Assembly (NCBI GenBank): GCA_903876685.1 | Contig: CAIRBC010000092.1 | Location: 1-37,505 of the forward strand | Reading direction: 5' to 3' | DNA from: an uncultured Nitrosomonadales bacterium | Lineage (GTDB): Bacteria > Pseudomonadota > Gammaproteobacteria > Burkholderiales > Gallionellaceae | DNA length: 37,505 bases | Made by a program: the position numbers and the translations under genes | In this document: piece by piece, positions 11,338-36,074 of the stretch | Position numbering within the stretch: the stretch's first letter is position 1 | Layout: the number at the start of each line of letters is the position of its first letter | Notes under the pieces: model-generated | What the model was told of the DNA's origin: nothing | Databases searched by the model: none | The model's input: the letters and a program-made list of their open reading frames with translations, nothing else

Positions 11338-11351
11338 TGAAAGCGCTTTCA
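11338..11351. promoter_or_regulatory. LacI-family operator, GH81/GH30 divergent promoter
   Basis: Perfect 14-bp palindrome TGAAAGCGCTTTCA. It stands almost midway between the two divergent genes: 61 bases from the GH81 ATG and 62 from the GH30 ATG, so one bound regulator could control both. The same sequence occurs at 26939 and 29664, and an expanded form at 34931. A TATAGT at 11370-11375 could be the GH30 -10 box, which would put the operator over the -35 region. Confidence 0.85.
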
Positions 11352-12942: not shown

Positions 12943-15900
12943 TCAAGCCAGGTGGATCACCAGTCTGGACAATTGATAGTCGCGCAGGCTCAACGCAAGC
13001 GCCGCTGGCAACCAACTCCCGTGATGCGTCTTGAGACTGCCGTCGAGGTAATGCAAATCGAAACGTGCCGGGGTTACCGCTCCCGGACCAAAAGTTGCAC
13101 ACCGGGCAGGGTTCTGATAAACGATCCAGGTCTGACCGAACAACTTGAAAGCAAAGCTGTGCGCGTCACAACCATCACCTGCAACCGTAGTGAACAACCA
13201 CTTGTCCAGCGTCGGATGCGGTTCGAAGCGCAAACTGCCTTCCACCAGGCGAAACGGCGCGCCACCGAGGCCCATATGCAACACCATACTGAGCCACTCA
13301 GCCGTCGCGCCACTTAAGCGGGCGACGAAACCGACCCCGTGAACACTGGCATCCGGGAAGCGGCTACTGGCGATGAACGACGAATTTTCCAGCGGCGAAC
13401 GTCCGTATACGTCAGCACTCTGGAAGGCTACCAGGCCGCGCTGCAGATCATCGAAGAACGGTTGCGCCAGACCACTACGCAAGGTTTCAAGCAAAAACTT
13501 GTAATGCATATGCAGGAAAATCGATTCATTTTCCAGCCAGCCAGGCGAGAAAATCCGGCTGCGACCGATCTCGAAACTCTCCTCGTCCAGCGGACAATTG
13601 ACGCGGTACATGCCTAGCTTTTTATCGTAAAGCGCCGATTGCCGGACGGCGCGGTAGAGTGCTGCGGCGCTATCAGGATTTTCGGCTCCGCGCAAGGCAT
13701 GCACCGCCCCTTCCAGGAAATTGCTGACCGGCTTTTGTGAGAAACACGTCACCTTGACATGAACCACTGCCACCTCATCCTGCTCATGCTTGGGCGGCGC
13801 TGGCAATACTTCATAGGCCTCGACTTGATGTGTATAGTAGCTGACCGGCAACCCGTTCAAAGCTACTGCCTTTTTCAGGCCTCGTTGCAGCAGTATATCG
13901 GCGGCTTGAACAAAACTTTGCAACTCTTCACACGACAGACAACTTAGCTCGCCCGCCACGCCCAGACGTACACTTTCCCGAAAATCTTCGCGCAGCGTCG
14001 CCAGTTTTTCCCAACTGGGGAAAAAGTTGCTGCTATCGGCAGAGCACAGAATCACCGTCAACTGACGCACAAAATCAGCCACTTCCAGCGGCACAGCCAG
14101 CGCTAACTCCGGCAAACCCGCCAGCATACGCCCCACAAAAGCCAGTCCACGGCGCAGCGCATAGGCTTCATGCGTGGAGGAACCAAACAACCCCGGCAAG
14201 CCATTCAGTGCATCGCACCAACCCGGTTTATCGGTCTCCATTTCCAGACCTATCCCGAAAGGATCCAGCAACGCAGTCTTGACGGCCAGCAGATTGATCA
14301 GTTTAGCCAGCAAGGTGGTTTGCAACACCGGCCCTGCCCCATGCAAAGTGCGCAACATGTTGCGTCCCTCGCTGCGACGATTGAGCAATCGCAGCTTTTC
14401 CTCATCCTTCAGCACGGCGTGCAACTGCCTGACTTTGCCGTCACTGCGCAGCGTATATTTTCTGGCGCGAGGTTGAACCAGATACTCGCTATCAAAATAA
14501 GTGTAGTCACCACGCCCGACCAGCAAAGCTTGCAACCGATCCGGATACAAACCGGCATAACTGTCCAGCAGATCCAGGTTGTAGAGCCAGTGATCGACCC
14601 AATAGCCTTCGCCATGCCTGCCCTCCTGGATCAGGTCGGCTACCCCAAGGATCTGCCTGAACAAGGGTTGTGCCCGCTCTAGCGTGCCGACTGCCTCCAG
14701 CAGCGCCTGCAGCAACTCTCCCGGACTAAAGGGACGCGACAAGAAAGTCAGCCAGTCCGCAGCAGGGGTATTTTGCAGCGCTGACCTCCGCGCCGGGGGA
14801 ACGCAGAATTTTTCCGAATGTACAATCAGCGGGTTGTTGCCGTCGATTTGCAGCAGATTGAAAAAAGTCACGATATTGGCCGTATCAATACCTTTAAACA
14901 GATAGTTTTCCGAACGGCGGTTCTGGTTCACGTCGCGAAAGTTGCTGTTGCCCTGCGAATAAAAGCTCGGTGCCACATCGAAGAAATTGTAGTCACGCTC
15001 CATGTCGCCATGTTTGCGGGTATACATATGAAACACGCAAGACCCGGCGGCAGCCTCAATCACCACCGGTTGTCCGCCGCGCAAGGTGTTATCCAGAAAC
15101 GCCTGGCGCGTATAGGGGGCAAGCTGCGGCGGGCCGGCGACCAGATCGAATTGGCCGGAGAGCGCATTAAGCAGCGCGCGATTCTCGGCACGCTTTTGCA
15201 AGGCATAGTTGCCGGTGATACGTTCACGGAAAGCGCAAGCGGTCTGCCAGTCAGGCGTCTGTCCAAAATAAGAGTCCCAACTGGCCGTCTCACCGGCTTC
15301 CAGCTGCAAAGAGAGCTTGGCGAAGGCGCAACCGGTCAGCGTTTCCTGCCTGCCGGCGGCAGCATCGATAGTTGTGTTTTGCATAAACGCCAGCGGCTGA
15401 CGCAAACTGGTATCGGAACCAAACACCTGTTCGGGATCGACCAGCACGTCCACCGGCTGATTGCACTGCATCGTGAAAGCGAAAAAGCCGCCGTCGATAC
15501 GTTCCATCTCCGGCTTGTCGGAGGGCTTCACCTTGAGTTTGTAAAAAGGTAACTGCTGCGCCACATGGGTAATCTCGGCAAACGCCTGCAGGGTGCGCGA
15601 CATCTGTTTAAGCAGATGTTCCTCCAGGCCAAAGGGCACCACCAGCGGCAAACCGTCCAGCACCTCGAAAGCCTGTGGCGCAGCACCGGCATTTTCGACC
15701 GTGACCCTGCGCACCAGCGCAGGAACCGCTTCATTAGGCAAGCCAAAATAAGTGACCCGAATCCGCAAATCCGCGTGAGTCTCGACAATTTCGATCTCCT
15801 CCGGGCGGATGGTGAGCGTGGCAACCGCGCTCTGAAACGGTTCATAACACTCACCAGCTTGCTTGAAAAAGGTACGAAAGCCGAACAGCGAAGTCAGTGC

Positions 15901-16095
15901 ATAGGCCTTGTCTGCCGGATAAAATTCCAGCATCGCCCCGTTCCGGTCACGCACCCCAAAACTGGCGATGCATTGCCCCCGATTGGTATAGAACACCCAG
16001 AGCGGTTTGCCATAAGCACCGGCGATACCCGGCAGAAAGCTGGCAAAGGGTCGCGCGGCGTTATAGGCTGGAAGATCGAAGCCGTCTGCCGTCAT
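12943..16095 (-). CDS. Beta-1,3-oligoglucan phosphorylase, GH94-clan (probably GH161)
   Basis: A large cytoplasmic enzyme of 1050 aa. The opening residues FASFLPGIAGAYGKPLWVFY and the following NRGQCIASFGVRDRNGAMLE resemble the very large phosphorylases of the GH94/GH149/GH161 group, and the length (about 1000-1150 aa) fits GH149 or GH161 rather than cellobiose phosphorylase (about 800). GEGYWVDHWLYNLDLLDSY near residue 500 is the likely start of the catalytic helical barrel and may hold the catalytic acid. These enzymes split beta-1,3-oligoglucans with phosphate to give alpha-glucose-1-phosphate. The GH161 assignment is from memory of family features and from context. It is the last gene of the operon, 18 bases after glucokinase. 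GTG 16104 is an alternative start. Confidence 0.8.
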   Translation of the reverse strand: MTADGFDLPAYNAARPFASFLPGIAGAYGKPLWVFYTNRGQCIASFGVRDRNGAMLEFYPADKAYALTSLFGFRTFFKQAGECYEPFQSAVATLTIRPEEIEIVETHADLRIRVTYFGLPNEAVPALVRRVTVENAGAAPQAFEVLDGLPLVVPFGLEEHLLKQMSRTLQAFAEITHVAQQLPFYKLKVKPSDKPEMERIDGGFFAFTMQCNQPVDVLVDPEQVFGSDTSLRQPLAFMQNTTIDAAAGRQETLTGCAFAKLSLQLEAGETASWDSYFGQTPDWQTACAFRERITGNYALQKRAENRALLNALSGQFDLVAGPPQLAPYTRQAFLDNTLRGGQPVVIEAAAGSCVFHMYTRKHGDMERDYNFFDVAPSFYSQGNSNFRDVNQNRRSENYLFKGIDTANIVTFFNLLQIDGNNPLIVHSEKFCVPPARRSALQNTPAADWLTFLSRPFSPGELLQALLEAVGTLERAQPLFRQILGVADLIQEGRHGEGYWVDHWLYNLDLLDSYAGLYPDRLQALLVGRGDYTYFDSEYLVQPRARKYTLRSDGKVRQLHAVLKDEEKLRLLNRRSEGRNMLRTLHGAGPVLQTTLLAKLINLLAVKTALLDPFGIGLEMETDKPGWCDALNGLPGLFGSSTHEAYALRRGLAFVGRMLAGLPELALAVPLEVADFVRQLTVILCSADSSNFFPSWEKLATLREDFRESVRLGVAGELSCLSCEELQSFVQAADILLQRGLKKAVALNGLPVSYYTHQVEAYEVLPAPPKHEQDEVAVVHVKVTCFSQKPVSNFLEGAVHALRGAENPDSAAALYRAVRQSALYDKKLGMYRVNCPLDEESFEIGRSRIFSPGWLENESIFLHMHYKFLLETLRSGLAQPFFDDLQRGLVAFQSADVYGRSPLENSSFIASSRFPDASVHGVGFVARLSGATAEWLSMVLHMGLGGAPFRLVEGSLRFEPHPTLDKWLFTTVAGDGCDAHSFAFKLFGQTWIVYQNPARCATFGPGAVTPARFDLHYLDGSLKTHHGSWLPAALALSLRDYQLSRLVIHLA

Positions 16096-16113
16096 GACCG
16101 GCACCCGATTAGC

Positions 16114-18090: not shown

Positions 18091-20499
18091 TCACGCAAAT
18101 TTAGCTAAGCCGTTCTTATCCCACAGACCCCAGTAGGCACCCACATCGCCTTCGAGTCCAACCTTCCAGGCTTCATCGAAGGCGGCAAAATAAAACAGTT
18201 CCAGCTGATCCTGTTCAGCCCAACGCTGGCTATCGATGAAGTAGCGCTTCGCCCCGTTTACCGAGGGCCTCGCACCGTAAAAGGCACTGCCCTTGTCAGG
18301 CCAACCGGTCTCACTGACGATGACCTTCTTGCCAGCGGCAACCGCGATAGTGCGACGAAGCATGTCCTGCATATAGGCGATCGCATTTTGTTCCGGACAC
18401 CCTTCCCAGAACGGATAGCAATTGGTCAACACCACGTCACAGGCCGCCGTGATGCGCGGATGCTTCTCGAACACATAATAGGCATCGACGTAGCCGACCG
18501 GAATATTCGGCAAAGCCTGTTTGACCCGGGCAATCAGCGCAAGCAGCGCGTCTTCAGACAAATCTTCGCGCAACAGCACCTCATTACCGACCGCCACTAT
18601 ATCGGCGTGACCGGCGAGTGCTACTTCAATCAGGCCGCTGATTTCGCGTTCGTTGATGGCGTGATCGGTGCCCAGCCACGCCCCTACCAACGTCTTGATC
18701 CCCAATTCATGGGCGATCTTCGGCGTCTGCTCGTGCCCGTCAGTACACGAAAAAGTACGAATCCAGCGCGTATAGGGACGAATCACCGAGAGTCTCTCAC
18801 GAATCTGTTCGGCGCTGATCTGCGAACCCGGTGACTGTCCTTCCAGGTAAGGACTGAAACAAAACCCGTGCACTCCCGCCTGCAGTACCGAGCGGAATTC
18901 CTCATCGAGCAATGCCTGTTCACCCCCGGTCAACGGTAGTTCCTGAACGGCAGCCTGCTCAACGGGCGGCAAGTGTTGTGCGTAGGGTGAAACATGATGG
19001 AACTGGGCTGGCGCTAATTTTGACATGCTAATCTCCAAATTTTCAGGCGGGGTGGCTGCGGCAACAGGGGAAGGTACCGGCTCAGACTCAAACTTACTCT
19101 CAAGCTCAGGCTCTTGCTCAGGTAATACATCAACAGAACGTGTTTTATCCGCACGCCGTTGTTGCAGTTCACGGGTCATCTTGCTGACCATATGCTCGTC
19201 AAGCTCGTAAAACCACAGTGCGCCTATCGCAATCAGCGCGCCTACCGTCGGAATAATGCTCATCATCATCATGATACCGTCGATGGTGCGCGCACTCTGC
19301 ACCACGTTTGGCTGATAACCGAAATAAGCCAGCAGCCAGCCGGTACCGGCTCCGCCAATCGCCCAGCCGAATTTCTGCGCGAAAGAGGCGGCGGAAAATA
19401 CCAGACCAGTAGCACGACGTCCGCTTTTCCACTCGGAATAATCTGCCGTATCGGCGTACATCGCCCAGACCAGAGGGGCGGTCGGTGCCGCACACAGGCT
19501 GATTAAGGCATGCGCACCCCATACCATGGCCAGATTATCCGGCGGCACAAAATAAAAGCCTGCGGTCAGTAAGGCGGTCAGTGCCATCGAAGCCATATAG
19601 AAATTGCGTTTGCCGAAGATTTTCGACAGCGGAGAGGTGACCATCACCCCGATGATAAAGGCGATTGCACCAGTGGTCATTACCGGTCCGAAATAATCCT
19701 TGCCACCCGGCACCACATTTTCAAAGTAATAGATGCTGACTGTGCCACGGATGTTGGCGTAGGTGAGTGCGGCGATGCCGACGATGCACAACACCACCCA
19801 GGGTTTGTTGCGAAACAGATCCTTGACATCTTCCTTGAGCGTAGACTGCTGTTTTTGCTCAGGCTGCACGCGCTCTTTAGTCATCGCGAAGGTCGCAAAA
19901 TACAGCAGCACCGCCACGCTCGAATAGATGATCATGGTCATTTGCCAGCCGCTGGCGGAATTTTCGCTGCCGCCGAAATAACTGGCGAACGGAATCGCGG
20001 TATTCACGATGATGAACACCGGCAGCAGCGCCATCACGAAGCGGTAGGAACAGACGCTGGTGCGATCCACAGAACTGGGCGTCAATACGCCCAGCAAGGC
20101 AGAATAAGGAATGTTTATCGCGGAATAAGCGACCATCATCAGGCTGAGTGTGACATAGGCGTAAACGATCCGGCCGGTACCGCCGAAAGAGGGAACCGTG
20201 AAGGTAAGCACCGCCGTGACTGCCATCGGGATCGCCATCCACACCAGATAAGGCCTGAAACTACCCCAGCGGGTTCGGGTACGATCCGCAAGCGCGCCAA
20301 TCACCGGGTCGATCAGCGCATCACCGATGCGGGTGACCAGCAGCATGGTTCCCATGGTGGCTGCACCCAGTAAAAACACATCGGTGTAATATTTCGCAAT
20401 AAAAATCGAGAACATCTGCCAGAACAGATTCGATGCCAGATCGCCGAAGCCATAGCCGATCTTCTCGGTCACCGTGAGTTTTGGAGTCTCATTTTCCAC
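18091..20499 (-). CDS. GPH-family sugar transporter fused to a GH17 domain
   Basis: An 802-aa fusion. Residues 1 to about 440 are a twelve-helix glycoside-pentoside-hexuronide:cation symporter, with GYGFGDLASN, RIGDALIDPVIGALADRT and RTRWGSFRPYLVW. An acidic, Pro/Glu-rich linker (about 445-500, EQEPELESKFESEP) leads to a complete GH17 domain with CFSPYLEGQSPG, acid/base Glu640 in AVGNEVL and nucleophile Glu730 in VIVSETGWP. GPH carriers have both ends in the cytoplasm, so the enzyme would sit on the inner face, at the channel exit. GTG 20499 is chosen because GGGAGG precedes it by five bases; it overlaps the GH16 gene by 11 bases. The track's 33-residue extension is basic, non-hydrophobic and reads into GH16. 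An internal ribosome site at the linker could also yield free GH17. Confidence 0.88.
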   Translation of the reverse strand: MENETPKLTVTEKIGYGFGDLASNLFWQMFSIFIAKYYTDVFLLGAATMGTMLLVTRIGDALIDPVIGALADRTRTRWGSFRPYLVWMAIPMAVTAVLTFTVPSFGGTGRIVYAYVTLSLMMVAYSAINIPYSALLGVLTPSSVDRTSVCSYRFVMALLPVFIIVNTAIPFASYFGGSENSASGWQMTMIIYSSVAVLLYFATFAMTKERVQPEQKQQSTLKEDVKDLFRNKPWVVLCIVGIAALTYANIRGTVSIYYFENVVPGGKDYFGPVMTTGAIAFIIGVMVTSPLSKIFGKRNFYMASMALTALLTAGFYFVPPDNLAMVWGAHALISLCAAPTAPLVWAMYADTADYSEWKSGRRATGLVFSAASFAQKFGWAIGGAGTGWLLAYFGYQPNVVQSARTIDGIMMMMSIIPTVGALIAIGALWFYELDEHMVSKMTRELQQRRADKTRSVDVLPEQEPELESKFESEPVPSPVAAATPPENLEISMSKLAPAQFHHVSPYAQHLPPVEQAAVQELPLTGGEQALLDEEFRSVLQAGVHGFCFSPYLEGQSPGSQISAEQIRERLSVIRPYTRWIRTFSCTDGHEQTPKIAHELGIKTLVGAWLGTDHAINEREISGLIEVALAGHADIVAVGNEVLLREDLSEDALLALIARVKQALPNIPVGYVDAYYVFEKHPRITAACDVVLTNCYPFWEGCPEQNAIAYMQDMLRRTIAVAAGKKVIVSETGWPDKGSAFYGARPSVNGAKRYFIDSQRWAEQDQLELFYFAAFDEAWKVGLEGDVGAYWGLWDKNGLAKFA
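19024..19036 (-). promoter_or_regulatory. Internal ribosome binding site and ATG at the GH17 boundary
   Basis: Inside the fusion gene, GGAG (19033-19036) stands six bases before an in-frame ATG (19026) that opens MSKLAPAQF. Starting there would give a 311-aa protein, almost the same length as the stand-alone GH17 next door (309 aa). This looks either like a relic of two separate genes or like a working site for a second product. Confidence 0.5.
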
Positions 20500-21397
20500 G
20501 TTTGCCTCCCGACTTCTTCTGGTACGGCAGCTTGCCCGGACCGCGCGGCGGCGCTTCGGCATAGCCGCCCACCTTATCGTAAACCCGCACGTAATCAATC
20601 ACCAACTCGGCAGGAAAGTGTGTTTCAGGATTAGGATGACCGGGGAAATTGCCGCCCACGGCGATGTTCATCAGCAAATAGAAAGGCTGGTCAAAGGGTG
20701 CCGGCCAGGGGTTGATGTCTGATTTCTTCTTGGCCTCGACCCCGACCCCCTCGACATTTTTGCTACAACTCCACCAGAAGTTCTGGGTTGCCCAGTGCAC
20801 GCCATCCAGCAGCCAGCGTATCTCGCCCGGTTCCCACTCCACCGTGTACACATGCCAGTCGCTGACCAGGCTGTCCTCAGGAATCTTGTGCACATGGGTA
20901 ATCAGCGAGCGCTTGGGATAAGTGGAGCCGTAATGAAGGGTACCCAGCACCTCGTCCGGTTTTTCGCCGACAATTTCCATCACGTCGATCTCACCGGACG
21001 CCGCCCACCCGCCATAATGATCAGTCAGCGGCAGCATCCACAGGGCAGGCCACATCCCTTTGCCCCAGGGCACTTTGGCGCGGAATTCAAATTTTCCATA
21101 CCGCTTGCTGAACAGCGGCGTACCGTCACGCTTCACTGTCTTCAGCCTGGCCGAGGTATACCCGCAACCGTGCAGCGATTCCTTGACCGCGCGTATAGTC
21201 AGCAGACTGTCTTTGACCGAGACATTTTCAGGCTCGCGAGTATAGTATTGTAGTTCCTCGTTTCCCCAACCGGGAATCCAGGCATGGTTCCGGTAGTCAT
21301 AAAACCCATTGCCCAGATCATAATCCCATTTCGCCGGGTCAATCCGGTCGCCCTCGAATTCGTCGTTCCAGACCATTACCCACTCATTTTCAGTCAT
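20489..21397 (-). CDS. GH16 laminarinase (cytoplasmic)
   Basis: A 302-aa glycoside hydrolase family 16 enzyme. The catalytic signature GEIDVMEIVG supplies nucleophile Glu136, Asp138 and acid/base Glu141; the extra Met makes it the beta-bulge form found in beta-1,3-glucanases (laminarinases) rather than lichenases. WNDEFEG, WGNEELQYYT, RYGKFEFRAKVP, GMWPALWMLP and FYLLMNIAVGGN are further family markers. ATG 21397 is favoured: GGGGG lies just upstream and the ATG overlaps the ATPase stop codon as ATGA; the track's 32-residue extension reads into the ATPase gene. There is no signal peptide, which is unusual, as most GH16 laminarinases are exported. It should cut longer imported beta-1,3-oligoglucans. 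Confidence 0.9.
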   Translation of the reverse strand: MTENEWVMVWNDEFEGDRIDPAKWDYDLGNGFYDYRNHAWIPGWGNEELQYYTREPENVSVKDSLLTIRAVKESLHGCGYTSARLKTVKRDGTPLFSKRYGKFEFRAKVPWGKGMWPALWMLPLTDHYGGWAASGEIDVMEIVGEKPDEVLGTLHYGSTYPKRSLITHVHKIPEDSLVSDWHVYTVEWEPGEIRWLLDGVHWATQNFWWSCSKNVEGVGVEAKKKSDINPWPAPFDQPFYLLMNIAVGGNFPGHPNPETHFPAELVIDYVRVYDKVGGYAEAPPRGPGKLPYQKKSGGKRGK

Positions 21398-25571: not shown

Positions 25572-26857
25572 TAGCGATTAGCCCGGTGTTGCAGCAGGCG
25601 CTGCGCGTCTGCCAGGGCGGTGGTGATATCCTTGCCCCGATCCAGCACCTTGTCGAGTTCGGTATTGATCACCTCGTCGGCAAAGGCGTCCTGCTTGTGC
25701 ACGTCGATCGCCGTGATGTGGCTGGCCGCTTCGCGCCAGATAACGCGCGCTTTCTGCCCACCCAGAAAGGCGATCGGCAATTCAAAAAAGGGATCGTCAT
25801 AGCTTGAGCTCAGCGCAGGAAAGGCGTCCTGCACCTTGAAGGCGGCTAATTGAACCTCGCGGTTTTGCGTCATCAACTTGATAAATTCCCACGCCAGCCG
25901 TTTATGCGCCGCAGGCGCTCCCTTGGGTATGGCATAAAAAGTGCCTCCATAGGCCGCATAAGCCTGTTCGGGCAATTGTGCGGCGCGCCATAATCCCCGT
26001 GTGCCGGGAGCAAGCCAGGTATTCATATGTCCGGAAAGCCAGGCGCCGCTCATCTGCGTGGCGATGCCACCCCGTTTAAAACCTTCAGACCATTCGTTTG
26101 ACCAGGCAATCACTTTGGCATCCAGCTTCAGGGTACGCACCTTGCGCGCCAGTTCGAACGCCCGCACAAAGCGCGGTGTGTTGACCAGCACCCGCGACTG
26201 CTTATCGAAATACAGCCCTTCGCCCGGCTTGATACCGGTACGAATCATGATATCTTTCATGTCGCGGGCGTGGGCGATCAAATAAGCACCGGTGACCGCC
26301 TTGATCTGCACGCCGCTTTCCACGTAGCTATCCCAGGACTGGCGCATTTGCGCTTCAGTCACCCCTGCCTTATCCAGTAGGTCGATACGATACAACATAG
26401 TCCCGGGACCAATATCAGCAGGTGCAGCCACCACCGCACCATTTCGACTGGTGGCCTGAGCATAGGCATAAGGTACATAACCCGCTTGAAATTGACCGAT
26501 CGTGTAAGGTGCAAGTGCCAGATCTTCAAGCCCGCCCCCCTGAGCAAACCTGCCGACAAAGCCGACTTCAAGCGCCATTACGTCCGGCAAATAAAACGAA
26601 GTCGACAACGCCGTAATCATTGCAGTATGGTGATCGTTGAACTGACGACTGACCACCTTGATCTCCACCTCCGGATGCAGACGCTTCCATAAGGGAATCG
26701 CGGCTTTGACAATCTCGTCAACAGCAGGATAAGCCGCCACGGTCAGTGTCAGCGGCGGCTGAGAGTCAGTCTGACTGGCGCTGACGTCGCAGAGTGTCAG
26801 GCTGATCAAGCCCAGCACTGCTAACACTTTCCATGGAAAAAACCGCCTGCTGTTCAT
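25571..26857 (-). CDS. ABC sugar importer solute-binding protein (CUT1 type)
   Basis: A 428-aa periplasmic binding protein of the family 1 extracellular solute-binding type. The signal peptide spans about residues 1-28 (hydrophobic WKVLAVLGLISLTL, likely cut after VSA). The mature part opens with LTLTVAAYPAVDEIVK and has the usual APADIGPGTMLYRIDLLDKAG hinge region and YAIPKGAPAAHKRLAWEFIKLM near the C-terminus. Several exposed Trp residues (NEWSEGF, GAWLSG) could stack on sugar rings. It is the first gene of the ten-gene operon; an operator and a good promoter stand directly upstream. The ligand is inferred to be beta-1,3-gluco-oligosaccharide from its neighbours. Confidence 0.93.
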   Translation of the reverse strand: MNSRRFFPWKVLAVLGLISLTLCDVSASQTDSQPPLTLTVAAYPAVDEIVKAAIPLWKRLHPEVEIKVVSRQFNDHHTAMITALSTSFYLPDVMALEVGFVGRFAQGGGLEDLALAPYTIGQFQAGYVPYAYAQATSRNGAVVAAPADIGPGTMLYRIDLLDKAGVTEAQMRQSWDSYVESGVQIKAVTGAYLIAHARDMKDIMIRTGIKPGEGLYFDKQSRVLVNTPRFVRAFELARKVRTLKLDAKVIAWSNEWSEGFKRGGIATQMSGAWLSGHMNTWLAPGTRGLWRAAQLPEQAYAAYGGTFYAIPKGAPAAHKRLAWEFIKLMTQNREVQLAAFKVQDAFPALSSSYDDPFFELPIAFLGGQKARVIWREAASHITAIDVHKQDAFADEVINTELDKVLDRGKDITTALADAQRLLQHRANR

Positions 26858-26938
26858 TGTTCTGATTCCTGATTCAAGGTGATTTCAGCATCATTAATAT
26901 TATTGATTCGCTCAGGCATCGGTCACGCACGATAATTA

Positions 26939-26952
26939 TGAAAGCGCTTTCA
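26939..26952. promoter_or_regulatory. LacI-family operator before the ABC/GH operon
   Basis: Perfect palindrome TGAAAGCGCTTTCA, 81 bases before the binding-protein ATG. It begins eight bases downstream of the -10 box of the promoter at 26961-26989, so it covers the transcription start, the classical position for a repressor. The same 81-base spacing is found for the lipoprotein gene. Confidence 0.88.
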
Positions 26953-26960
26953 TTAAACTC

Positions 26961-26989
26961 AGAATAGCCTGCAGTGCCACTGAAGTCAA
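26961..26989 (-). promoter_or_regulatory. Sigma-70 promoter of the ABC/GH operon
   Basis: On the minus strand, TTGACT (26984-26989) and TATTCT (26961-26966) are separated by exactly 17 bases. Five of six bases match the -35 consensus and four of six match the -10. Transcription would start about 26954, at the edge of the operator. Confidence 0.65.
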
Positions 26990-27020
26990 ACACTATTTTA
27001 TCAATATGAACCACCAGCAA

Positions 27021-27064
27021 AGCGGCCATCCAATCCGCTTGAGAATGCGGCCGGGATGGCCGCT
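27021..27064 (-). terminator. Hairpin after the surface lipoprotein gene
   Basis: A perfect 11-bp inverted repeat, AGCGGCCATCC and GGATGGCCGCT, separated by 22 bases, begins 16 bases after the lipoprotein stop codon. On the minus strand it is followed only by TTTGCTGG, not by a long T run, so it is a plausible but not classical terminator. It separates the lipoprotein gene from the ABC operon promoter. Confidence 0.5.
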
Positions 27065-27080
27065 CTCCCAAGTCTGATGA

Positions 27081-29582
27081 TCATTGAAACTGGGTCAAGC
27101 CACGTGCGATGCCGGTCGGATAAACTGCCCCGGAAATGATAGTCGTGTTGATATTCGGATAGATCAACTGTGAATTGACTGCCCCGATCGGCTGCGCCAG
27201 TACCGCAGCGGCCGTGGTGTAATTTCCGCTATAAGGGGAGCCGCAGCCATTGCTAAGCGTGAAACTGGACAGCGGGATGGTATAGCCGATCATGGTGCTA
27301 CTGGTCGGATTCACACTGGCTGTCACCGTCGCATTGCATTTGTTAATACCGCTGGTATAGGTCTGCGCACCGACAATCGATACCGTAATCGACCGATTGC
27401 TCACCTGCTTGTAGAAATTTGCGTCTACACCCAGATTAATTAGCAGACTGGTCTGTCCATTCAAGGTCAGGCCATTGCCGGGATAAGTGACATACATGCC
27501 CACATAGCCACCGGCGGTTGGTGGAGTTGCGCCAGGCGCCGGTGCGGAGGGTGCTGAGGTAATCACCGATATCCAGAAATCCTGACTGGCGTCCGCTATC
27601 GCAGGCGCATAGTCCCCACCCGCATAAGTATTTGTATAATGAGTAAAGTCTCCGCTGACATAACCCCAGGTTCCGCCCTGAGCGGTGGTCTTGGTCGAAG
27701 TGAAGCCGCTGGCAAAGGTCAGCAAGGGTGCGACAGGCATCACCGAATTGGAAGCCGCAGACTCGATACTATTGCCGATGCTATTGGTCGCGTGCACGGT
27801 AAAGGTATAAGCGATTCCATTGCTCAGTCCGGTCATGGTATGCGACAACAACGTGCTTCCGGCATTGCTGTCCACCCCGCCGGACGGAACCGAACTGACC
27901 GTATAGCCGGTAATCGCGCTACCGCCATCCGAAGCCGGCGCAGTAAAAGCGACCGTTGCCAGCGCATTGCCAGCACTAGCCGTGCCGATGAGCGGAACAC
28001 CCGGAGCTGTAGGACTGGCCGGCGGCAAGGCAGGCGTGACGCTATTGGAAGCAGCCGATTCTGCGCTACTACCTATAGCGTTAGTCGCATGCACCTTGAA
28101 GCTGTAAACAACCCCGTTAGTCAGACCGGTTATCTGGTGCGTCAATGCGGTGGTACCCGCATTACTATCCACCCCCCCGCTGGGTGTGGAGGTCACGGTA
28201 TAACCCGTGATCGCGCTGCCACCATCACTGGCAGGTGCGGTGATGACCAGGGTCGCCTGTGCGTTACCCGCGCTAACCGAAGCAACAGCAGGTGCGCCCG
28301 GAACCGTCAGAGTGCCGCCCGCAAAGCGCAAATTATCGAAATAATAGTTGCGCAGGGCTGGCATCGGGGCAGAAGCAACACCGGTGTCGCTGCCCAGACC
28401 AAAGTCAAAAAAGACTGATGCCTTGTTATAACTGTAAGCCAGATTCAACGCCGGTGTACCGCTGGCGGCACTGGCAAAATTAAAGGTCAGTGTCTCCCAG
28501 GAGTTAGCTTTGGTCGAAACGGCTTCAGTCTCTACACTATGCTGGGAATTCGCCGAATCTTCCAGCTTGAGTCTCACATGCACACCGATCGCCGGACTGC
28601 AGACGTTTGCCGTCATGTTTTTTGCTGCAGAAAAATCGAGTGCGGTTCCGCTCCAAAGGGTGGTTCCCGCCCAGGAATTGGCAGAAACGGGCTTCTGGAC
28701 ATCCAGCACCTTGTTCGAAGCATTGGCCGGGTCTAGCGCAATGCTCGAGCCGGCGCCACCGAAATCGGTATGTAGCGGCGTCCCATCAAACGAGGCCAGC
28801 ACCGTGCCGCTTCCCGTATTACTGGCATTCCCGCAGGCACCGGTGCTTCCGCCAGCCGGCAACAATTTTGTGCCTTCCTCAATAGCATTCTTCAAATCAA
28901 CAGCGCCTGGACTGGACGGCAACTTGACTACACCTGCTTTGACAGCATCCAGTGCCGAACCGAGATTATCAGTGGTGGGCGACTGACCAGCTATAGTGCC
29001 TGCCAGCATGGCTGCGACCAGCTTGGCCACATAATGAGACTTGTTATCCGGCGGATTTGCAATGTAATCAGCGGTAATAGCACCGGCCGGAACACCCAGA
29101 TCACTTTGCACCTTGGCCTGAGCCTCGGCTACGCTGCTGGCAGGTTTTACCATCATGTTCAGCGAAACCATGGTCGTCAACGGTGAGACTATCGAAGGCG
29201 TTTCTGCTGGTGCCATCAGGGTATAGGTTTTCGAAACTGCGCTTGCCGGCAAATCATCAGCGTCGTGCGCAACACCCGCCGTGATCACCGCGACCAGATG
29301 TTTACCAGCGATAGAACTACCATAAGGTACCTTAAGGCTGAAGCTGCCTGAAGTGCCCGTGGTTTGCTGAGGATCGCTGGGATCACAGACCCCGTTACTG
29401 TTTTTCAGCGGCAGACAAACCGTTGCGCCGCTAATATATCCATCCATCAACGTACCTGTCAGAGTCGGCCCCTGCAGTACGCCACCGCCACCACAAGCCG
29501 CCAGCGTCAAGGCGACTAGTGCAGCAGCACAGGTTTTATAGTGTGACGCCCTGCCCCGGATTTCATTGACTGCTGCAAACAT
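27081..29582 (-). CDS. Surface lipoprotein with FN3 and putative glucan-binding modules
   Basis: An 833-aa protein of unrecognised overall type. The N-terminus has a lipoprotein signal with lipobox LTLAAC followed by GGGG. A short carboxypeptidase-regulatory-like stretch (GTLMDGYISGATVCLP) comes next, then a beta-sandwich module that looks carbohydrate-binding (about 261-418, ending YYFDNLRFAGG), two fibronectin type III domains (about 427-517 and 527-614), and a C-terminal module (621-833) that I cannot name. The last and the beta-sandwich modules both have relatives in the 1639-aa GH17 protein. No catalytic domain is seen, so it probably binds glucan at the cell surface. ATG 29582 is chosen because GGGAG precedes it and the lipobox then falls at a normal distance. 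A LacI-type operator stands 81 bases upstream. Confidence 0.75.
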   Translation of the reverse strand: MFAAVNEIRGRASHYKTCAAALVALTLAACGGGGVLQGPTLTGTLMDGYISGATVCLPLKNSNGVCDPSDPQQTTGTSGSFSLKVPYGSSIAGKHLVAVITAGVAHDADDLPASAVSKTYTLMAPAETPSIVSPLTTMVSLNMMVKPASSVAEAQAKVQSDLGVPAGAITADYIANPPDNKSHYVAKLVAAMLAGTIAGQSPTTDNLGSALDAVKAGVVKLPSSPGAVDLKNAIEEGTKLLPAGGSTGACGNASNTGSGTVLASFDGTPLHTDFGGAGSSIALDPANASNKVLDVQKPVSANSWAGTTLWSGTALDFSAAKNMTANVCSPAIGVHVRLKLEDSANSQHSVETEAVSTKANSWETLTFNFASAASGTPALNLAYSYNKASVFFDFGLGSDTGVASAPMPALRNYYFDNLRFAGGTLTVPGAPAVASVSAGNAQATLVITAPASDGGSAITGYTVTSTPSGGVDSNAGTTALTHQITGLTNGVVYSFKVHATNAIGSSAESAASNSVTPALPPASPTAPGVPLIGTASAGNALATVAFTAPASDGGSAITGYTVSSVPSGGVDSNAGSTLLSHTMTGLSNGIAYTFTVHATNSIGNSIESAASNSVMPVAPLLTFASGFTSTKTTAQGGTWGYVSGDFTHYTNTYAGGDYAPAIADASQDFWISVITSAPSAPAPGATPPTAGGYVGMYVTYPGNGLTLNGQTSLLINLGVDANFYKQVSNRSITVSIVGAQTYTSGINKCNATVTASVNPTSSTMIGYTIPLSSFTLSNGCGSPYSGNYTTAAAVLAQPIGAVNSQLIYPNINTTIISGAVYPTGIARGLTQFQ

Positions 29583-29663
29583 GCTGTACTCCCTGCTGTG
29601 AATTTTTACGGTGACTGCCAGAGCCGAATTTCCTGTCGAGTGAAACGGAAATCCGTGACCATC

Positions 29664-29677
29664 TGAAAGCGCTTTCA
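29664..29677. promoter_or_regulatory. LacI-family operator before the lipoprotein gene
   Basis: Perfect palindrome TGAAAGCGCTTTCA, 81 bases before ATG 29582. A weak promoter (TTGCAA at 29703-29708, 17-base spacer, TAAATT at 29680-29685, minus strand) lies immediately upstream of it, giving the same operator-after-promoter order as in front of the ABC operon. Confidence 0.85.
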
Positions 29678-29761
29678 TTAATTTATTCCAAATTAACACA
29701 TATTGCAACTTGCATTTTCAAGGCATCACAACCGCCAATTTAGCCGTCCCGCAATTTTGCT

Positions 29762-29796
29762 TTAAAAAAAGCGGGTCCCTCTCAGAACCCGCTTTT
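29762..29796 (-). terminator. Rho-independent terminator of the 1639-aa GH17 gene
   Basis: Stem AAAAGCGGGT / ACCCGCTTTT (10 bp, 10-base loop) followed on the minus strand by a run of T residues. It begins 22 bases after the stop codon at 29819 and ends before the lipoprotein promoter, so the two surface-protein genes are separate transcription units. Confidence 0.85.
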
Positions 29797-29818
29797 GTAC
29801 GCTATTGCCAAATTGACC

Positions 29819-32800
29819 TTAAGGATGATTGACCCAGAAACCAGTGGTCGGACTCAAGCTCTTGCCCGCCGTTGGATCACTAAAGTCCAGATAAGTCTTG
29901 GTTGAAATATAGGATGACAAGCTACCATTATTATCCAGAACCGGCGTATAGAAGAACCAGTTCATTTTGACATTATCCCAGGCCCACAAGGAAATAAGGC
30001 TGTTTGAGGCGTTCGCACCCAATACAGGTGACGGTGACGTAACAGCGACCTGGTTGACAAACGCTCTGGGCGATGAACCATCCCCGACAGTGATCAGACT
30101 CCAGCCTGGAGGCAAGGCATTCGCACCTATAGCTGAATCCTGATCTTTAAAGTCACTCACCTTGACCGCGTTTCCTGCCGGCAATTGAATCGTGAAAGTC
30201 GCAGAAGCATTCACCCAGAAACCCTCACCACCATTGACTATGGAAAGCACATCATAGCCTTTCGACAAAGCATAAGCGGCTAGCTGTGCCGGAGTCATGG
30301 CAGGGGTATAGAAAGCCCATCTTTGGGTCTTGGAAACCCATTTCCAGACGGTGGTTACCTGACTTTGCGTCTGATCCCCTAACTTGGTCACATCCAGCGC
30401 TGTACTGCTGCTGTTACCTAGCAAGTTCCAACCCTTAGTCACAGCAACCATTGGCGTAAACACCGCAGTAATCGAGCAATTGGCTGTGATCACCCCGGTG
30501 GTATAGGTACTACCACTGAGGCTACCGCCGCAACCTGACACCGAAACAGTGACATAGCCTGCATTGGGTGAAACCGTAAAGCTTGTGGTCGCACCCGGAG
30601 CCACCGTCTGTGTGGCAGGACTGAAGCTGCCATAGAGGCCGGCATTGGCAGTAACCGTTAGCGTACTGGCTGGCGTAACGGCGTTGGAGGCTGCCGATTC
30701 CAGGCTGCTGCCGACCGCATTAATCGCATGTACCGTGAAGGTATAGCTGGTTCCGTTGGTCAAGCCGGTCACGGTATGGGTCAAGGCATTACTGCCCGTA
30801 TTGCTGTCCGTGCCACCGGCAGGAATCGATTTCACCGTGTATCCGGTAATCGTGCTGCCACCATTGCTGGCCGGGGCGGTGAAGTTGACGATCGCCTGAG
30901 CGTTGCCACCGGTAGCGGTTCCGATGGTCGGTGCACCAGGAACGGTGGCAGAACCAGAGCCTGCTCCTGGGGTCAGATCATCGAAATAGTACACGCGGTC
31001 AGCAGGCATCGGCCCGGAACCGCCATTTCCAAGTCCAAAATCCGGGAAAACCGACACCTTGTTATAGGTTTTAGTCAAGTCCAGCGCGGCTGTGGGTCCA
31101 CCACCGACAGGTGGTGCAAGTCCCGGATTAGCAAAATTGAAAGTCAAGGTTTCCCAGGCGTTCGCCACCGTGGTGATTGCGTCCGTTTCCACGCTAATGC
31201 CGTCGTTTGATGCGTCTTCGACTTTCAGACGAATCCTTATACCTGCTGCCGGACTGTAAGACCGCAGAGTCAAGATCTTGCTGTTGGCACTGAACGGAAT
31301 AGACGCTATAGCGTTGAATCCCGAATTACGGCCACCTGTGGGATTTACGTTAAGCAATGCAATCGTGGTACCACCCCAGGTTTCAGAGCCGGTTGCCTGT
31401 TTCTTGTAGACTTTCAGCACCTTGTTACTGCCGCCTGCAGGATCTGCCACGACTTCAGAGGGTGTACCATTCAAGCCAAAGTCAACCATCGTGGGTGGCG
31501 GCGTTTCGTCGAAAGTCACCAACTGGTTGCCGGCTGGCGCTGCACCACCCACAAATACCGTCATGCCGCGGGTAATTCCCGTCGCATAAACAGGCGCGCC
31601 TACAGTCCCGGAATTAACCGTGGTATTAAGGTTAGGGTAGCTCAACTGGGTGTTGATCGCGCCGATCGGTTGTGCCAGTGCCGCAGCAGCGGTAGTGAAG
31701 TTACCAGAGAAGGGTGCACCGCAACCTTGCGCCAGCGTGAATTTGCTCAGCGGAATGGTGTAGGTCGTCATCGCATCAGAGGTCGGGGTCACCGTGGTCG
31801 TCACCGAAGTATTGCATAAACCGCCGCTGCCGTTACTGTACTGTTGCGCGCCAACGATGAAGATGGTGATGTCCTTATTGGTCGCTTGTTTAAAGAAATC
31901 AGCATCCATACCCAGATTAATCGCCAGACTGGTCTGTCCTGAGAGAGCCAGTCCTGCGCCTGGATAAGTCACATACATACCCAGATAGCCGCCTGCAGTG
32001 GGCGGGGTAGCACTCGGAGCAGGGGCTGTCGGGGCTGTCGTGGTCACCGCAATATAGAAATACTGGTTCGCATCCGCCACCGCAGGTGAGGAATCGGCAA
32101 AACCGCCACCGGTGTAGGTGTTGGCATAATTGGTGAAATCTCCGCTGAAATATCCCCAACTGCCGCCCTGCGAAGTACCATAGGTCGAGGTGAACCCACT
32201 GGCAAAGGTCAGGCTTCCACCCGCAGCAGTGGCCGAAGGTGTCACCGCATTGGATGCAGCCGACTCAGCGCTGTTGCCGGTGGAATTAGTTGCATGCACC
32301 GTGAACGTATAGCTGGTTCCGTTGGTCAAGCCGGTGATGATATGCGTCAACCCTGTCGTAGCAGTATTGCTGTCTACGCCCCCGGCAGGGAATGAAGTCA
32401 CTGTGTAACCAGTGATTGCACTGCCGCCGGTATTGGCAGGTGCGGTAAAGGTAACCACAGCCTTGGCATTGCCACCCGTCGCCGTCACCGAAGCCGGTAC
32501 ACCGGGAACCGTCGCCGCGATTGTACCTGCCCAGAAATAAAGGTTGTCTATATACACCGTATTCCCGCCAGGCGTTCCGACAAACTTGAATTGGAAAATA
32601 TTGGTTTTAGCCGGAATTGTGTAAGCGCTCAGTGGAATATCAAAACTGTTCCAGCCTGTGGTCGTAGGATGCAACGTATAGGGCTGCTCTAGTGCGGGTG
32701 CTCCGGGCGAAATCAGGTACACATCCAGCGCAGTGGTAGTCGCAGCCCACACATCAATGTGTAGATAACTCATCCCGCTCACATCGATGCCGGTATTGGG

Positions 32801-34738
32801 AGAAAGCTCCAACCCCTGATAGCCCAGATTTGCATATTTGAGAATGTGGCTTCCCGTGACAATTATCTCAGACTCAACCGTAGACTGACCCCAGTTCGGG
32901 TTGAGGTTAAAACCCGCGCCAGTCATCGCTCCATAAGTATCCCCATAAATCGATATATAGGTACCGGCGGTTCTGACTGGGGGGGTAGTCGGATTGACGG
33001 TCGGGTCTGAGCCGCCTACGGCAGGCGCTGAAAAAGTTGCTGCTGCATACAACGGACTGGTGCAGGCAGGTGCACCGGTGACCGCAGTCACGCCACACAA
33101 GGCATAGCGAGTGTTGCGACTGGCATCCCAAAGACCCCAGCCATCATCGTTGTTTTTCCAGGCTTCGTCAAAGGCTTCGAAATAAAATACGGTTTTCGGT
33201 CCCGTTGCACCGTTCTGCCAGGCATCCATCGCGTCGTAATACATTTTGGCATTGACAGGGTTTGCACAGCAGTTTTCCAGCGGATTGGCTGCATTGGTGA
33301 CCATCGCCTTCCAGCCGGTTTCACCCACCACGATCGGCAGGTTCGCTCCTCCATGACTGGCAATATAAGTTGCGACCTGGTTATAACTGTCTTTTGCGTT
33401 TTGCAGCGCCGCACTCATCATAGCAGACGCACTGCCGGTATTCTGATAAGTCCAGCGATTAGGATTGCTCATCGGATAAGTGTGCATCGACACGAAGTCC
33501 AGCAGCGGTAAAATGCTATCCGGCAACTCCGTGGCACCAGATCCCCCTGCGAAGAAGGTGTAATCGTCATCTGCCGTCACCGGCTGAGTAATACCCTGTT
33601 TAACCGTGGTGATATAGCCCTTCAGACAGGCCACCGGCATATAAGCGCTAAAGAAGGAAGTCTCGTTACCCACACTGACTGAAACTACATTCGAATATGT
33701 ATTGGCTTCCCGGATGCCATTTTGTACGTCAGTATCATTGGCTGGGCTGGCACAGCTGGCCTGACTGGCTGGAGCAATTCCCGACAGGTAAATGCCCAGC
33801 TGAAACTTCAGACTGGAGAAACTCGCAGCCGCGACGCGCAGAATATTTTCATGTGAAAGATCGGTATCGAACAGGCGCAGCAGGGTATATCCGGCGGAAC
33901 TGAGTTTGGTCAAATCCTCGGTAATCTGCGCATCGGTAGGCACTTCACTGGCACCCGGACCGCCAGCACGATAGGCGCTGTAGTTAATCGCCTTGACATT
34001 ATTTGCATAAACTGCAGGTAAAGCACGCAGCGCCAGTGAATTTCCGCCCGAGACAGTTGCCGTTTCAAAGGAGATGCCGCCCAGATTGAGACCGTTTGGA
34101 TAAGCGCCTGCTGTTCCGTTTGTGGTAAATTGCATATTAGCCTGCAGCAGTTGTGCATGTACCTCTTTCAGCGGCAACGCCAGAAATGCAGCCATGGTAC
34201 TGGTTCCACAACCACTGATTGTCCAATTAGCGTCGGTGAGGGTTTTAGTATAAGTAGTCGCTGTCGTGGGAGCTGCAACCCCATTCCCGGTATTCACCGC
34301 CGTTGCCATGATGGTGATCGGGCTGTTTGCAGTCGCTGTACAGCTGGCTGATTTTAAAATAAGCGTTGCAGCACAATGCCCTACACATTCTGTGTTAGTA
34401 CCCAAGCCGACAGTAATGGAAGTCGCACCGGTGATATTCCAGGTATTACTGCCTGCACCCGCAACATACACGCCAATGCCTGCCCCCGTACCCGTTGGAT
34501 CCACGCCATCGCCCCGGTACACCGAGTCAGTGCCTACACCGCCCCACCAATAGGTTGGCGACGGACTGCCAAATTCATATCCAGACGCGGTATTGTTCCC
34601 AGGTAATGCAGCACCGGATGCAGGCACATAAGAATCCTGGCTCGCCGTCTGATTCTGCACCACAATGACTGTCGCAGAGGAAAGCACAGGGAAAAACAAG
34701 GTAAACAGGATGAAAAACCGTACTACTATCGAACACAT
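29819..34738 (-). CDS. Secreted multidomain GH17 beta-1,3-glucanase
   Basis: A 1639-aa exported protein. Signal peptide to about residue 22 (FFILFTLFFPVLSSA). After a 220-residue N-terminal region of unknown type comes a GH17 domain (about 249-551) with acid/base Glu in SVGNETSFF and nucleophile in PIVVGETGWKA. Then follow a putative binding module (591-738; NPNWGQSTVESEI, YIDNLYFWAG), FN3 (746-835), an unnamed module (844-1064) shared with the lipoprotein, a second putative binding module (1073-1256), FN3 (1264-1358), an InlB B-repeat-like domain (1360-1431) and a C-terminal duplicated module, each copy running from a GWNLLG/GWSLI motif to GFWVN. ATG 34738 follows GAGGAG; the track's TTG is part of that ribosome site. 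It should attack insoluble or long glucan outside the cell. Confidence 0.87.
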   Translation of the reverse strand: MCSIVVRFFILFTLFFPVLSSATVIVVQNQTASQDSYVPASGAALPGNNTASGYEFGSPSPTYWWGGVGTDSVYRGDGVDPTGTGAGIGVYVAGAGSNTWNITGATSITVGLGTNTECVGHCAATLILKSASCTATANSPITIMATAVNTGNGVAAPTTATTYTKTLTDANWTISGCGTSTMAAFLALPLKEVHAQLLQANMQFTTNGTAGAYPNGLNLGGISFETATVSGGNSLALRALPAVYANNVKAINYSAYRAGGPGASEVPTDAQITEDLTKLSSAGYTLLRLFDTDLSHENILRVAAASFSSLKFQLGIYLSGIAPASQASCASPANDTDVQNGIREANTYSNVVSVSVGNETSFFSAYMPVACLKGYITTVKQGITQPVTADDDYTFFAGGSGATELPDSILPLLDFVSMHTYPMSNPNRWTYQNTGSASAMMSAALQNAKDSYNQVATYIASHGGANLPIVVGETGWKAMVTNAANPLENCCANPVNAKMYYDAMDAWQNGATGPKTVFYFEAFDEAWKNNDDGWGLWDASRNTRYALCGVTAVTGAPACTSPLYAAATFSAPAVGGSDPTVNPTTPPVRTAGTYISIYGDTYGAMTGAGFNLNPNWGQSTVESEIIVTGSHILKYANLGYQGLELSPNTGIDVSGMSYLHIDVWAATTTALDVYLISPGAPALEQPYTLHPTTTGWNSFDIPLSAYTIPAKTNIFQFKFVGTPGGNTVYIDNLYFWAGTIAATVPGVPASVTATGGNAKAVVTFTAPANTGGSAITGYTVTSFPAGGVDSNTATTGLTHIITGLTNGTSYTFTVHATNSTGNSAESAASNAVTPSATAAGGSLTFASGFTSTYGTSQGGSWGYFSGDFTNYANTYTGGGFADSSPAVADANQYFYIAVTTTAPTAPAPSATPPTAGGYLGMYVTYPGAGLALSGQTSLAINLGMDADFFKQATNKDITIFIVGAQQYSNGSGGLCNTSVTTTVTPTSDAMTTYTIPLSKFTLAQGCGAPFSGNFTTAAAALAQPIGAINTQLSYPNLNTTVNSGTVGAPVYATGITRGMTVFVGGAAPAGNQLVTFDETPPPTMVDFGLNGTPSEVVADPAGGSNKVLKVYKKQATGSETWGGTTIALLNVNPTGGRNSGFNAIASIPFSANSKILTLRSYSPAAGIRIRLKVEDASNDGISVETDAITTVANAWETLTFNFANPGLAPPVGGGPTAALDLTKTYNKVSVFPDFGLGNGGSGPMPADRVYYFDDLTPGAGSGSATVPGAPTIGTATGGNAQAIVNFTAPASNGGSTITGYTVKSIPAGGTDSNTGSNALTHTVTGLTNGTSYTFTVHAINAVGSSLESAASNAVTPASTLTVTANAGLYGSFSPATQTVAPGATTSFTVSPNAGYVTVSVSGCGGSLSGSTYTTGVITANCSITAVFTPMVAVTKGWNLLGNSSSTALDVTKLGDQTQSQVTTVWKWVSKTQRWAFYTPAMTPAQLAAYALSKGYDVLSIVNGGEGFWVNASATFTIQLPAGNAVKVSDFKDQDSAIGANALPPGWSLITVGDGSSPRAFVNQVAVTSPSPVLGANASNSLISLWAWDNVKMNWFFYTPVLDNNGSLSSYISTKTYLDFSDPTAGKSLSPTTGFWVNHP

Positions 34739-34930
34739 AACAAAACTCCTCAATGTTTTTTATTCCCTGCCGCTCAAAAAAATCCACCCTTTCAATTGCA
34801 TAAGCAATTGATCAAGAATGATTTAATCCGCAACAAATATTAAATCACCACACGGCGTCTGTTTTATTTCTTGGAAAAAACAGCACTGCAACCCGTCAGT
34901 AACACCCTCGATTTTTTCTAAAATTTATCG

Positions 34931-34957
34931 TGAAAGCGTTTTCTGAAAACGCTTTCA
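34931..34957. promoter_or_regulatory. Extended 27-bp LacI-type operator before the secreted GH17 gene
   Basis: A perfect 27-bp palindrome: half-site TGAAAGCGTTTTC, a central T, then GAAAACGCTTTCA. Each half overlaps one copy of the 14-bp operator form (TGAAAACGCTTTCA on the right, a two-mismatch copy on the left), so it may hold two regulator dimers. It stands 192 bases before ATG 34738 and 73 bases after the regulator's stop codon. Confidence 0.8.
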
Positions 34958-35030
34958 TAATCACTTTAATCTTAATTTTTGAGAAATGCAAGCAGATTTT
35001 TTTCAGCCGCCACAACGAAACTGAAACCGC

Positions 35031-36074
35031 TCAAATAGGGCAGGATCGGGTTGATTTTCGAATGACTAACTCGGGTGCAGGGTTATCAGAAGCATGCGTT
35101 TCCCCTGCTATCAATTTGAGCATGGTGACTGCTGCAATTTTGCCGATTTCTCGTATCGAGTGCCTGACGGTGGTGAGCGGGGGAATCATAAAAGATGAGT
35201 TTAGCAGATCATCAAAACCGACCAGCGAAATGTCGTCGGGCACACGCAACCCGCGATTGTACAAGGCGAGTGCAGCGCCATAGGCCATCTGATCGTTGGA
35301 TGCAAAAATCGCCGTAAAACGGCTACCCGAATCCAGCAACTTCAGCGTTGCCGCTTCGCCACCAGTTTCCATGAATTGTCCCTGCACGCAAAGCTTGGGA
35401 TCAAAAGGCAGGTTATGCGCTTTCAATGCTGCACGGTAGCCCTTGAATCGTTCAATCGCATCGTGATGACTGGAAATCCCCTTTAGAAAGGCGATACGGG
35501 TATGACCCAAGCCTATTAAATGTTCGGTGGCCATTTTCGCGCCGGTATAGTTATCAAAATTGAAACTATGTAACCTTTCCGAACTCAGCATTCTGCTGGT
35601 GACCACCATGGGGGTGCGGATAGACCGTTCAAGCAACACTTCATCCGGCAGGCAGGCTGACAGGATGATGATGCCATCGACGCGGCGTCCTTCCAGAAAA
35701 TTGATGCAACCCAGTTCGAAATCTTCACGCCAGTGACTGCTGACAAACAGGGGTGCATAATTTGCCGCAATCAATATTTCTTCAATACCGACCATGGCCT
35801 GACCATAATAAGGGCTGCCAAACACTTGGGTGATAATACCGATACTGTGACTTTTACCTCCCGCAAGTCCACTGGCGATGGGATTTGATACAAAACTCAG
35901 CTTCTTGATGGCTACTTCGATTGCTCTGCGTTTGATCTCGCTGACTTTTGCGGTACCATTTAAAAATCGCGAAACGGTGCTGGGAGAAACGCCTGCTTCT
36001 GCAGCAACCATTTCCAGCGTGGTAACCGGTTCTTCCGAGTAATTTTTGAGCTTGCCGGGTACTTGCATTGACAT
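35031..36074 (-). CDS. LacI-family transcriptional regulator of the glucan locus
   Basis: A 347-aa regulator. The N-terminal helix-turn-helix (about 17-60) has TTLEMVAAEAGVSPSTVSRF and LNGTAKVS, followed by the hinge NPIASGLAGG, in which the Leu would intercalate at the central CpG of the operator. The rest is a periplasmic-binding-protein-like effector domain with IGIITQVFGSPYYGQAMVGI, FASNDQMAYGAALAL and ISLVGFDD. CG-centred palindromes such as TGAAAGCGCTTTCA are typical targets of this family, and four such sites stand in front of the glucan units but none before this gene. It is inferred to repress the locus and to be released by a beta-gluco-oligosaccharide or its breakdown product. Translation could also start at Met3. 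Confidence 0.92.
   Translation of the reverse strand: MSMQVPGKLKNYSEEPVTTLEMVAAEAGVSPSTVSRFLNGTAKVSEIKRRAIEVAIKKLSFVSNPIASGLAGGKSHSIGIITQVFGSPYYGQAMVGIEEILIAANYAPLFVSSHWREDFELGCINFLEGRRVDGIIILSACLPDEVLLERSIRTPMVVTSRMLSSERLHSFNFDNYTGAKMATEHLIGLGHTRIAFLKGISSHHDAIERFKGYRAALKAHNLPFDPKLCVQGQFMETGGEAATLKLLDSGSRFTAIFASNDQMAYGAALALYNRGLRVPDDISLVGFDDLLNSSFMIPPLTTVRHSIREIGKIAAVTMLKLIAGETHASDNPAPELVIRKSTRSCPI

Follow-up and report, generated by a model that had tools for sequence, protein, structure and literature searches.

A candidate beta-1,3-glucan-binding lipoprotein and its unnamed C-terminal module in a Gallionellaceae locus

Surface capture of glycans is well worked out in Bacteroidota, which use SusD and surface glycan-binding proteins (SGBPs), and far less in Proteobacteria. 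SGBP-B of Bacteroides (BuSGBP-B) is a sequence-divergent, non-catalytic lipoprotein that is encoded in a beta-1,3-glucan locus and captures the polymer for enzymes (PMC7157763). Laminarin loci of marine Formosa (Flavobacteriia) encode PKD proteins, which were detected together with laminarin enzymes, and the same study knew fusions of an MFS transporter with GH17, reported in marine Flavobacteriia, from no other bacteria (PMC6246565). Muricauda has a lipid-anchored GH17 laminarinase, MlGH17A, with a signal peptidase II site (PMC13188888).

Here, we analyse a stretch of 37,505 nucleotides (the window) from the 4.82-Mb genome of a freshwater bacterium of the Gallionellaceae. The window encodes a lipoprotein that resembles SGBP-B in being non-catalytic and in belonging to a beta-1,3-glucan locus. 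The protein is from a different phylum and contains Ig-like/FN3 spacers. The locus differs from that of SGBP-B in its ABC transporter, MFS-GH17 fusion and putative porin, whereas neither a SusC-like TonB transporter nor SusD was found among the major ORFs scanned. SGBP systems of Bacteroidota are defined by the company of SusC/D, and the lipoprotein does not belong to them. The best reading is that it is a functional analogue of the SGBPs and not their homologue.

The locus and its lipoprotein

The locus encodes GH81, GH30, a GH161 phosphorylase recognized by a PDB match, glucokinase, GH17, the MFS-GH17 fusion, GH16, an ABC ATPase, GH1, two permeases, a sugar-binding protein, the lipoprotein, GH17 and a LacI-type regulator (Table 1). 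The predicted enzyme set fits a beta-1,3-glucan of the laminarin type; GH1, GH16 and GH30 enzymes act on other substrates too. The conserved protein encoded next to GH81 has no relatives in Pfam or PDB; its signal peptide and its last residue, Phe, are the grounds for guessing at an outer-membrane barrel. The multimodular GH17 protein adjoins the lipoprotein gene on the upstream side. It is closed by a recurrent C-terminal domain ending in LWAWD...GFWVNxP, which also closes other secreted multidomain proteins of this genome (L045, L047).

The lipoprotein is composed of a signal peptide, an N-terminal base domain, a module that we call M, two FN3 domains, and a C-terminal module that we call X. 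An alternative TTG start at 29708 in the ORF list is less likely than the ATG. The signal peptide and the LAAC lipobox point to lipidation of the protein, in agreement with the initial annotation. The same annotation had described a protein with no enzyme domain, in which two FN3 spacers precede a module at the extreme C-terminus. All of this is borne out: searches of Pfam and NCBIfam found no catalytic domain, both FN3 domains are real (Pfam match 2e-18), and X ends exactly at the stop codon. Titin-type matches of the FN3 domains are fold-level only and were set aside. The genome has 19 FN3 matches, spread across many large secreted proteins (L041, L042, L044 and other contigs), and just four of the matches are in the locus.

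Table 1 Features of the window that bear on the lipoprotein and its locus.
Feature	Position	Strand	Remarks
Conserved putative outer-membrane barrel (porin)	7564-8916	-	Adjoins GH81
Operator candidate	11338..11351	.	Between divergent GH81 and GH30 genes
GH161-type beta-1,3-glucan phosphorylase	12943-16104	-	Without any Pfam match; PDB 9qqk E=9e-200, close to 9h8v
MFS sugar transporter with C-terminal GH17 domain	18091-20598	-	Here in a betaproteobacterial locus
Operator candidate	26939..26952	.	Upstream of sugar-binding-protein/ABC genes
Lipoprotein gene	27081..29582	-	833 aa; ATG 29582, stop 27081-27083; ORF, GGGAG ribosome-binding-like site, lipobox
X module	27084..27722	-	213 aa; extreme C-terminus, last X residue is the last protein residue
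FN3 domain 2	27735..28004	-	Pfam PF00041
FN3 domain 1	28032..28301	-	Pfam PF00041
M module	28311..28817	-	Homologous to PDB 8qx6 (hmmsearch)
N-terminal anchor (base) domain	28818..29492	-	264-aa match (48% identity) to the L020 lipid-anchored GH17 enzyme
Signal peptide	29493..29582	-	From sequence; lipobox LAAC, Cys codon at 29495, +2 residue Gly
Operator candidate TGAAAGCGCTTTCA of the lipoprotein gene	29664..29677	.	82 nt upstream of the lipoprotein ATG
Intrinsic terminator after the GH17 gene	29767..29796	-	Fold -19.7 kcal/mol, z -4.4, then T run
Secreted, non-lipidated GH17 protein	29819..34753	-	X' - GH17 - jelly-roll-like - FN3 - X - M - FN3 - C-terminal domain
M copy, GH17 protein	30956..31531	-	In the M-FN3 block shared with the lipoprotein
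X copy 2, GH17 protein	31550..32212	-	69% identical to lipoprotein X, E=2e-86
X copy 3 (X'), divergent, GH17 N-terminus	34061..34678	-	Pairwise E=0.01; matches a profile of which the copy itself was part
One-mismatch operator candidate	34944..34957	.	Between GH17 and LacI-type regulator genes
LacI-family regulator gene	35031..36074	-	Pfam

The X and M modules

Module X matches no entry of Pfam or NCBIfam and no PDB sequence, and within these databases its description as unnamed holds. None of the 8 X members matches a curated Pfam CBM model at E<=10. Whether X was used as a profile or as a single sequence, PDB and Pfam gave chance-level matches only; PA-IIL (0.07), mL71 and RPTP-F were rejected as relatives. 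The module, correctly described as a recurring one, is also present in the neighboring GH17 gene, and a search with the X sequence finds these two close copies and no others in the whole genome. The lipoprotein and the GH17 protein have the blocks FN3-X and M-FN3 in common.

We modelled X twice with AlphaFold2, each time from another query row, and reached a mean pLDDT of 57 and pTM of 0.62-0.64. The low-confidence models have a beta-rich core, and their first 60-70 residues lack resolved structure. The best Foldseek matches of the first model include CBM11 bound to a beta-1,3-1,4-glucan oligosaccharide (probability 1.00, E=3e-3), and those of the second include GH16 beta-glucanases, SGBP-B (7k44), CBM16 and CBM15 (probability 0.3-0.5). 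X was not assigned to CBM11, since this match was absent with the second model. The resemblance of the models to CBM11, CBM16 and CBM15, which have a jelly-roll fold, is weak, differs between the two queries, and is not accompanied by a sequence match. The models are consistent with a carbohydrate-binding beta-sandwich and do not prove one.

X had been put forward as the binding-type module of the lipoprotein. The module is present, but a second one, M, had been overlooked. A four-sequence profile of M matches PDB 8qx6, a 'PKD domain-containing protein', over positions 20-161 of 166 (hmmsearch E=2.3e-17), and a two-sequence profile matches it with E=2.9e-9. By near-full-length homology, M is assigned to the family of 8qx6, in which X was not found. 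Our search found no paper describing 8qx6, which presumably is itself from a laminarin locus. Since M is homologous to 8qx6 and PKD proteins are encoded in the Formosa laminarin loci, the lipoprotein contains two candidates for a binding module. Of the two, M currently has the better pedigree, and binding may be a property of M no less than of X.

Relatives of X and the candidate operator

We searched for X in 158 genomes of the family, 399 of the order, 369 of the class, and a GTDB-wide contig set. Full-length X is present in five other genomes, making six genomes from three families, and always lies in a beta-1,3-glucan locus. The 369 genomes of the class gave no X from outside this order. 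The GTDB-wide contig set yielded three loci with an alignment profile of X and no match with the window sequence alone. Partial X-like matches in proteins of about 8000 residues (G185, 7e-5; G433, 6e-4) cover positions 7-96 only and were rejected as full-length copies; their loci (L016, L017) belong to another family of the order.

Enzymes of the relatives were named from reading the translations, except for GH17, which was assigned by similarity to the window proteins, and GH81 of G391, which was assigned by profile. In a Nitrosomonadales MAG (L020) and a Gallionellaceae MAG (L021), X is part of a lipid-anchored enzyme built as lipobox - N-terminal base - X - FN3 - GH17, which lies beside a putative porin in the former and with a putative porin, GH16, GH30 and GH81 in the latter. 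These enzymes share the lipid anchor, the kind of base domain, X and FN3 with the window lipoprotein but have the order X-FN3-GH17 instead of M-FN3-FN3-X. Because X occurs solely within an enzyme in L020 and L021, a locus of this kind can do without a separate non-catalytic lipoprotein. The remaining loci encode such a lipoprotein. That of a Sideroxydans MAG (L022) has the architecture FN3-FN3-X-M-jelly-roll and is accompanied by GH81, LacI, a binding protein and a permease. In a locus from another family (L023), an Ig-M-X lipoprotein lies among genes for glucokinase, GH81, a porin-like protein, a lipid-anchored GH17, an ABC ATPase, GH1 and permeases. In a third family (L024), a lipid-anchored GH17 is followed by an Ig-Ig-X lipoprotein.

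Of the four non-catalytic lipoproteins, three (window, L023, L024) end with X, as expected if it were the distal glycan-binding end of the protein. This part of the initial annotation is incomplete: X is internal in L022, and binding may lie in M. Three proteins (two from relatives, one from the window) combine X with GH17, and in the rest X lies beside GH81 and/or GH17. The fusions and the places beside GH17 suggest a common substrate for X and GH17. Among the 399 genomes sampled from the order, GH81 was found in four and full-length X in three, each of which has GH81. When the window's own genome is left out, 2 of 2 genomes with X have GH81, against 3 of 398 genomes overall (hypergeometric p=4e-5, with sampled species counted as independent). 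The GH81 gene of G319 is on a separate contig, and G188 has GH81 with no X detectable in the order search.

The shared modules also allow for a scaffold, in which X (and M) would mediate protein-protein contacts between the lipoprotein and GH17 and keep the enzyme cell-bound. X and M are common to the lipoprotein and the non-lipidated GH17 of the window, and homologous GH17 enzymes elsewhere (L020, L021) are lipoproteins. However, tethering would not be needed in L023 and L024, because the GH17 neighbors there are themselves lipidated and lack X. Furthermore, M is homologous to a PKD protein, and PKD proteins of the Formosa laminarin loci are expressed with laminarin enzymes (PMC6246565). We consider the scaffold improbable.

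The sequence TGAAAGCGCTTTCA, a perfect 14-base palindrome of the LacI-operator type, has three perfect sites in the whole genome, all of them within the locus, and the site at 34944 is its sole one-mismatch copy in the genome. Perfect copies are also located directly upstream of the non-catalytic X lipoprotein genes in L022 (1426), L023 (3970) and L024 (7756). From proximity and the type of site, we infer that the LacI-family protein encoded in the window regulates these sites. The GH17 gene is closed by a terminator, and the lipoprotein gene therefore has its own control region and probably forms its own transcription unit. A consensus terminator scan of 26700-35200 returned none, and limits of the scan pattern probably explain why it missed the hairpin listed in Table 1. 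The lipoprotein is apparently co-regulated with the locus through the locus-unique operator candidate.

FN3 domains and N-terminal lipoprotein domains of this kind are common, and the protein could be a hitch-hiker or an adhesin-like structural surface protein that shares repetitive domains with its GH17 neighbor by chance. Two things speak against this: in each of four genomes the gene has a copy of the locus-unique operator to itself, and the GH81/GH17 company is conserved across three bacterial families. Given the operator and the synteny, such a chance association is very unlikely indeed.

Role and orientation of the lipoprotein

A glycan-binding role is the natural reading of the X lipoprotein, which very probably serves its partner enzymes by keeping hold of laminarin. 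We consider it reasonably probable that the protein is a non-catalytic outer-membrane lipoprotein of a laminarin-type regulon that captures beta-1,3-glucan via M and X and most likely faces outward. The lipid anchor and the N-terminal base domain would carry M, the two FN3 spacers and the C-terminal X. M and X, as beta-sandwich carbohydrate-binding modules, would capture beta-1,3-glucan chains and hold them near the putative porin and the co-regulated extracytoplasmic enzymes, GH81 and the multimodular GH17 that shares X and M with the lipoprotein. Oligosaccharides would then pass to the ABC transporter. Outward export of the lipoprotein would use the type II secretion system or some other pathway. 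Glucan binding, surface exposure and hand-over to the enzymes are what we infer as the best explanation. Of the earlier proposal that the lipoprotein acts like an SGBP, the dedication of a non-catalytic lipoprotein to a beta-1,3-glucan locus stands, supported by the shared operator candidate, the conserved GH81/GH17 company and the X-GH17 fusions elsewhere; the role itself is putative.

If the lipoprotein binds glucan, its exposure on the cell surface is quite probable. Outer-membrane lipoproteins of Proteobacteria face the periplasm by default, and the protein could instead bind glucan on the periplasmic side of that membrane. There, it would concentrate imported oligosaccharides for periplasmic GH81 and GH17 and the ABC binding protein, and the porin would admit laminarin fragments. 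This arrangement matches the default topology, and a dedicated putative porin adjoins GH81 in the window and GH81 or the X protein in L020 (728-2146), L021 (5773-7134) and L023 (6469-7917). In addition, no signal peptide is evident in the sequences of several locus enzymes, and sizeable oligosaccharides must therefore reach the cytoplasm. However, the long multi-domain extension, with a binding-type module farthest from the anchor, suits outward reach, and ordinary porins are too narrow to admit intact laminarin. The genome encodes the type II secretion proteins GspD/E/F, which makes export of the lipoprotein possible. The long reach of the domain arrangement and the presence of GspD/E/F favour surface exposure, and the default topology speaks against it; we regard the periplasm-facing orientation as rather unlikely.

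We tentatively propose that X may represent a new family of beta-1,3-glucan CBMs, so far confined to the order of the Gallionellaceae, and that, with M, it may form part of a surface lipoprotein replacing SusD/SGBP in an ABC-based laminarin regulon controlled by LacI and TGAAAGCGCTTTCA. If this is true, the locus would provide a small, well-defined system for asking whether lipoproteins dedicated to glycan binding work at the surface of Proteobacteria with ABC transporters, and X would be an unclassified binding module to assay. It would also point to feeding on algal sugars in the Gallionellaceae, a family known for iron oxidation.
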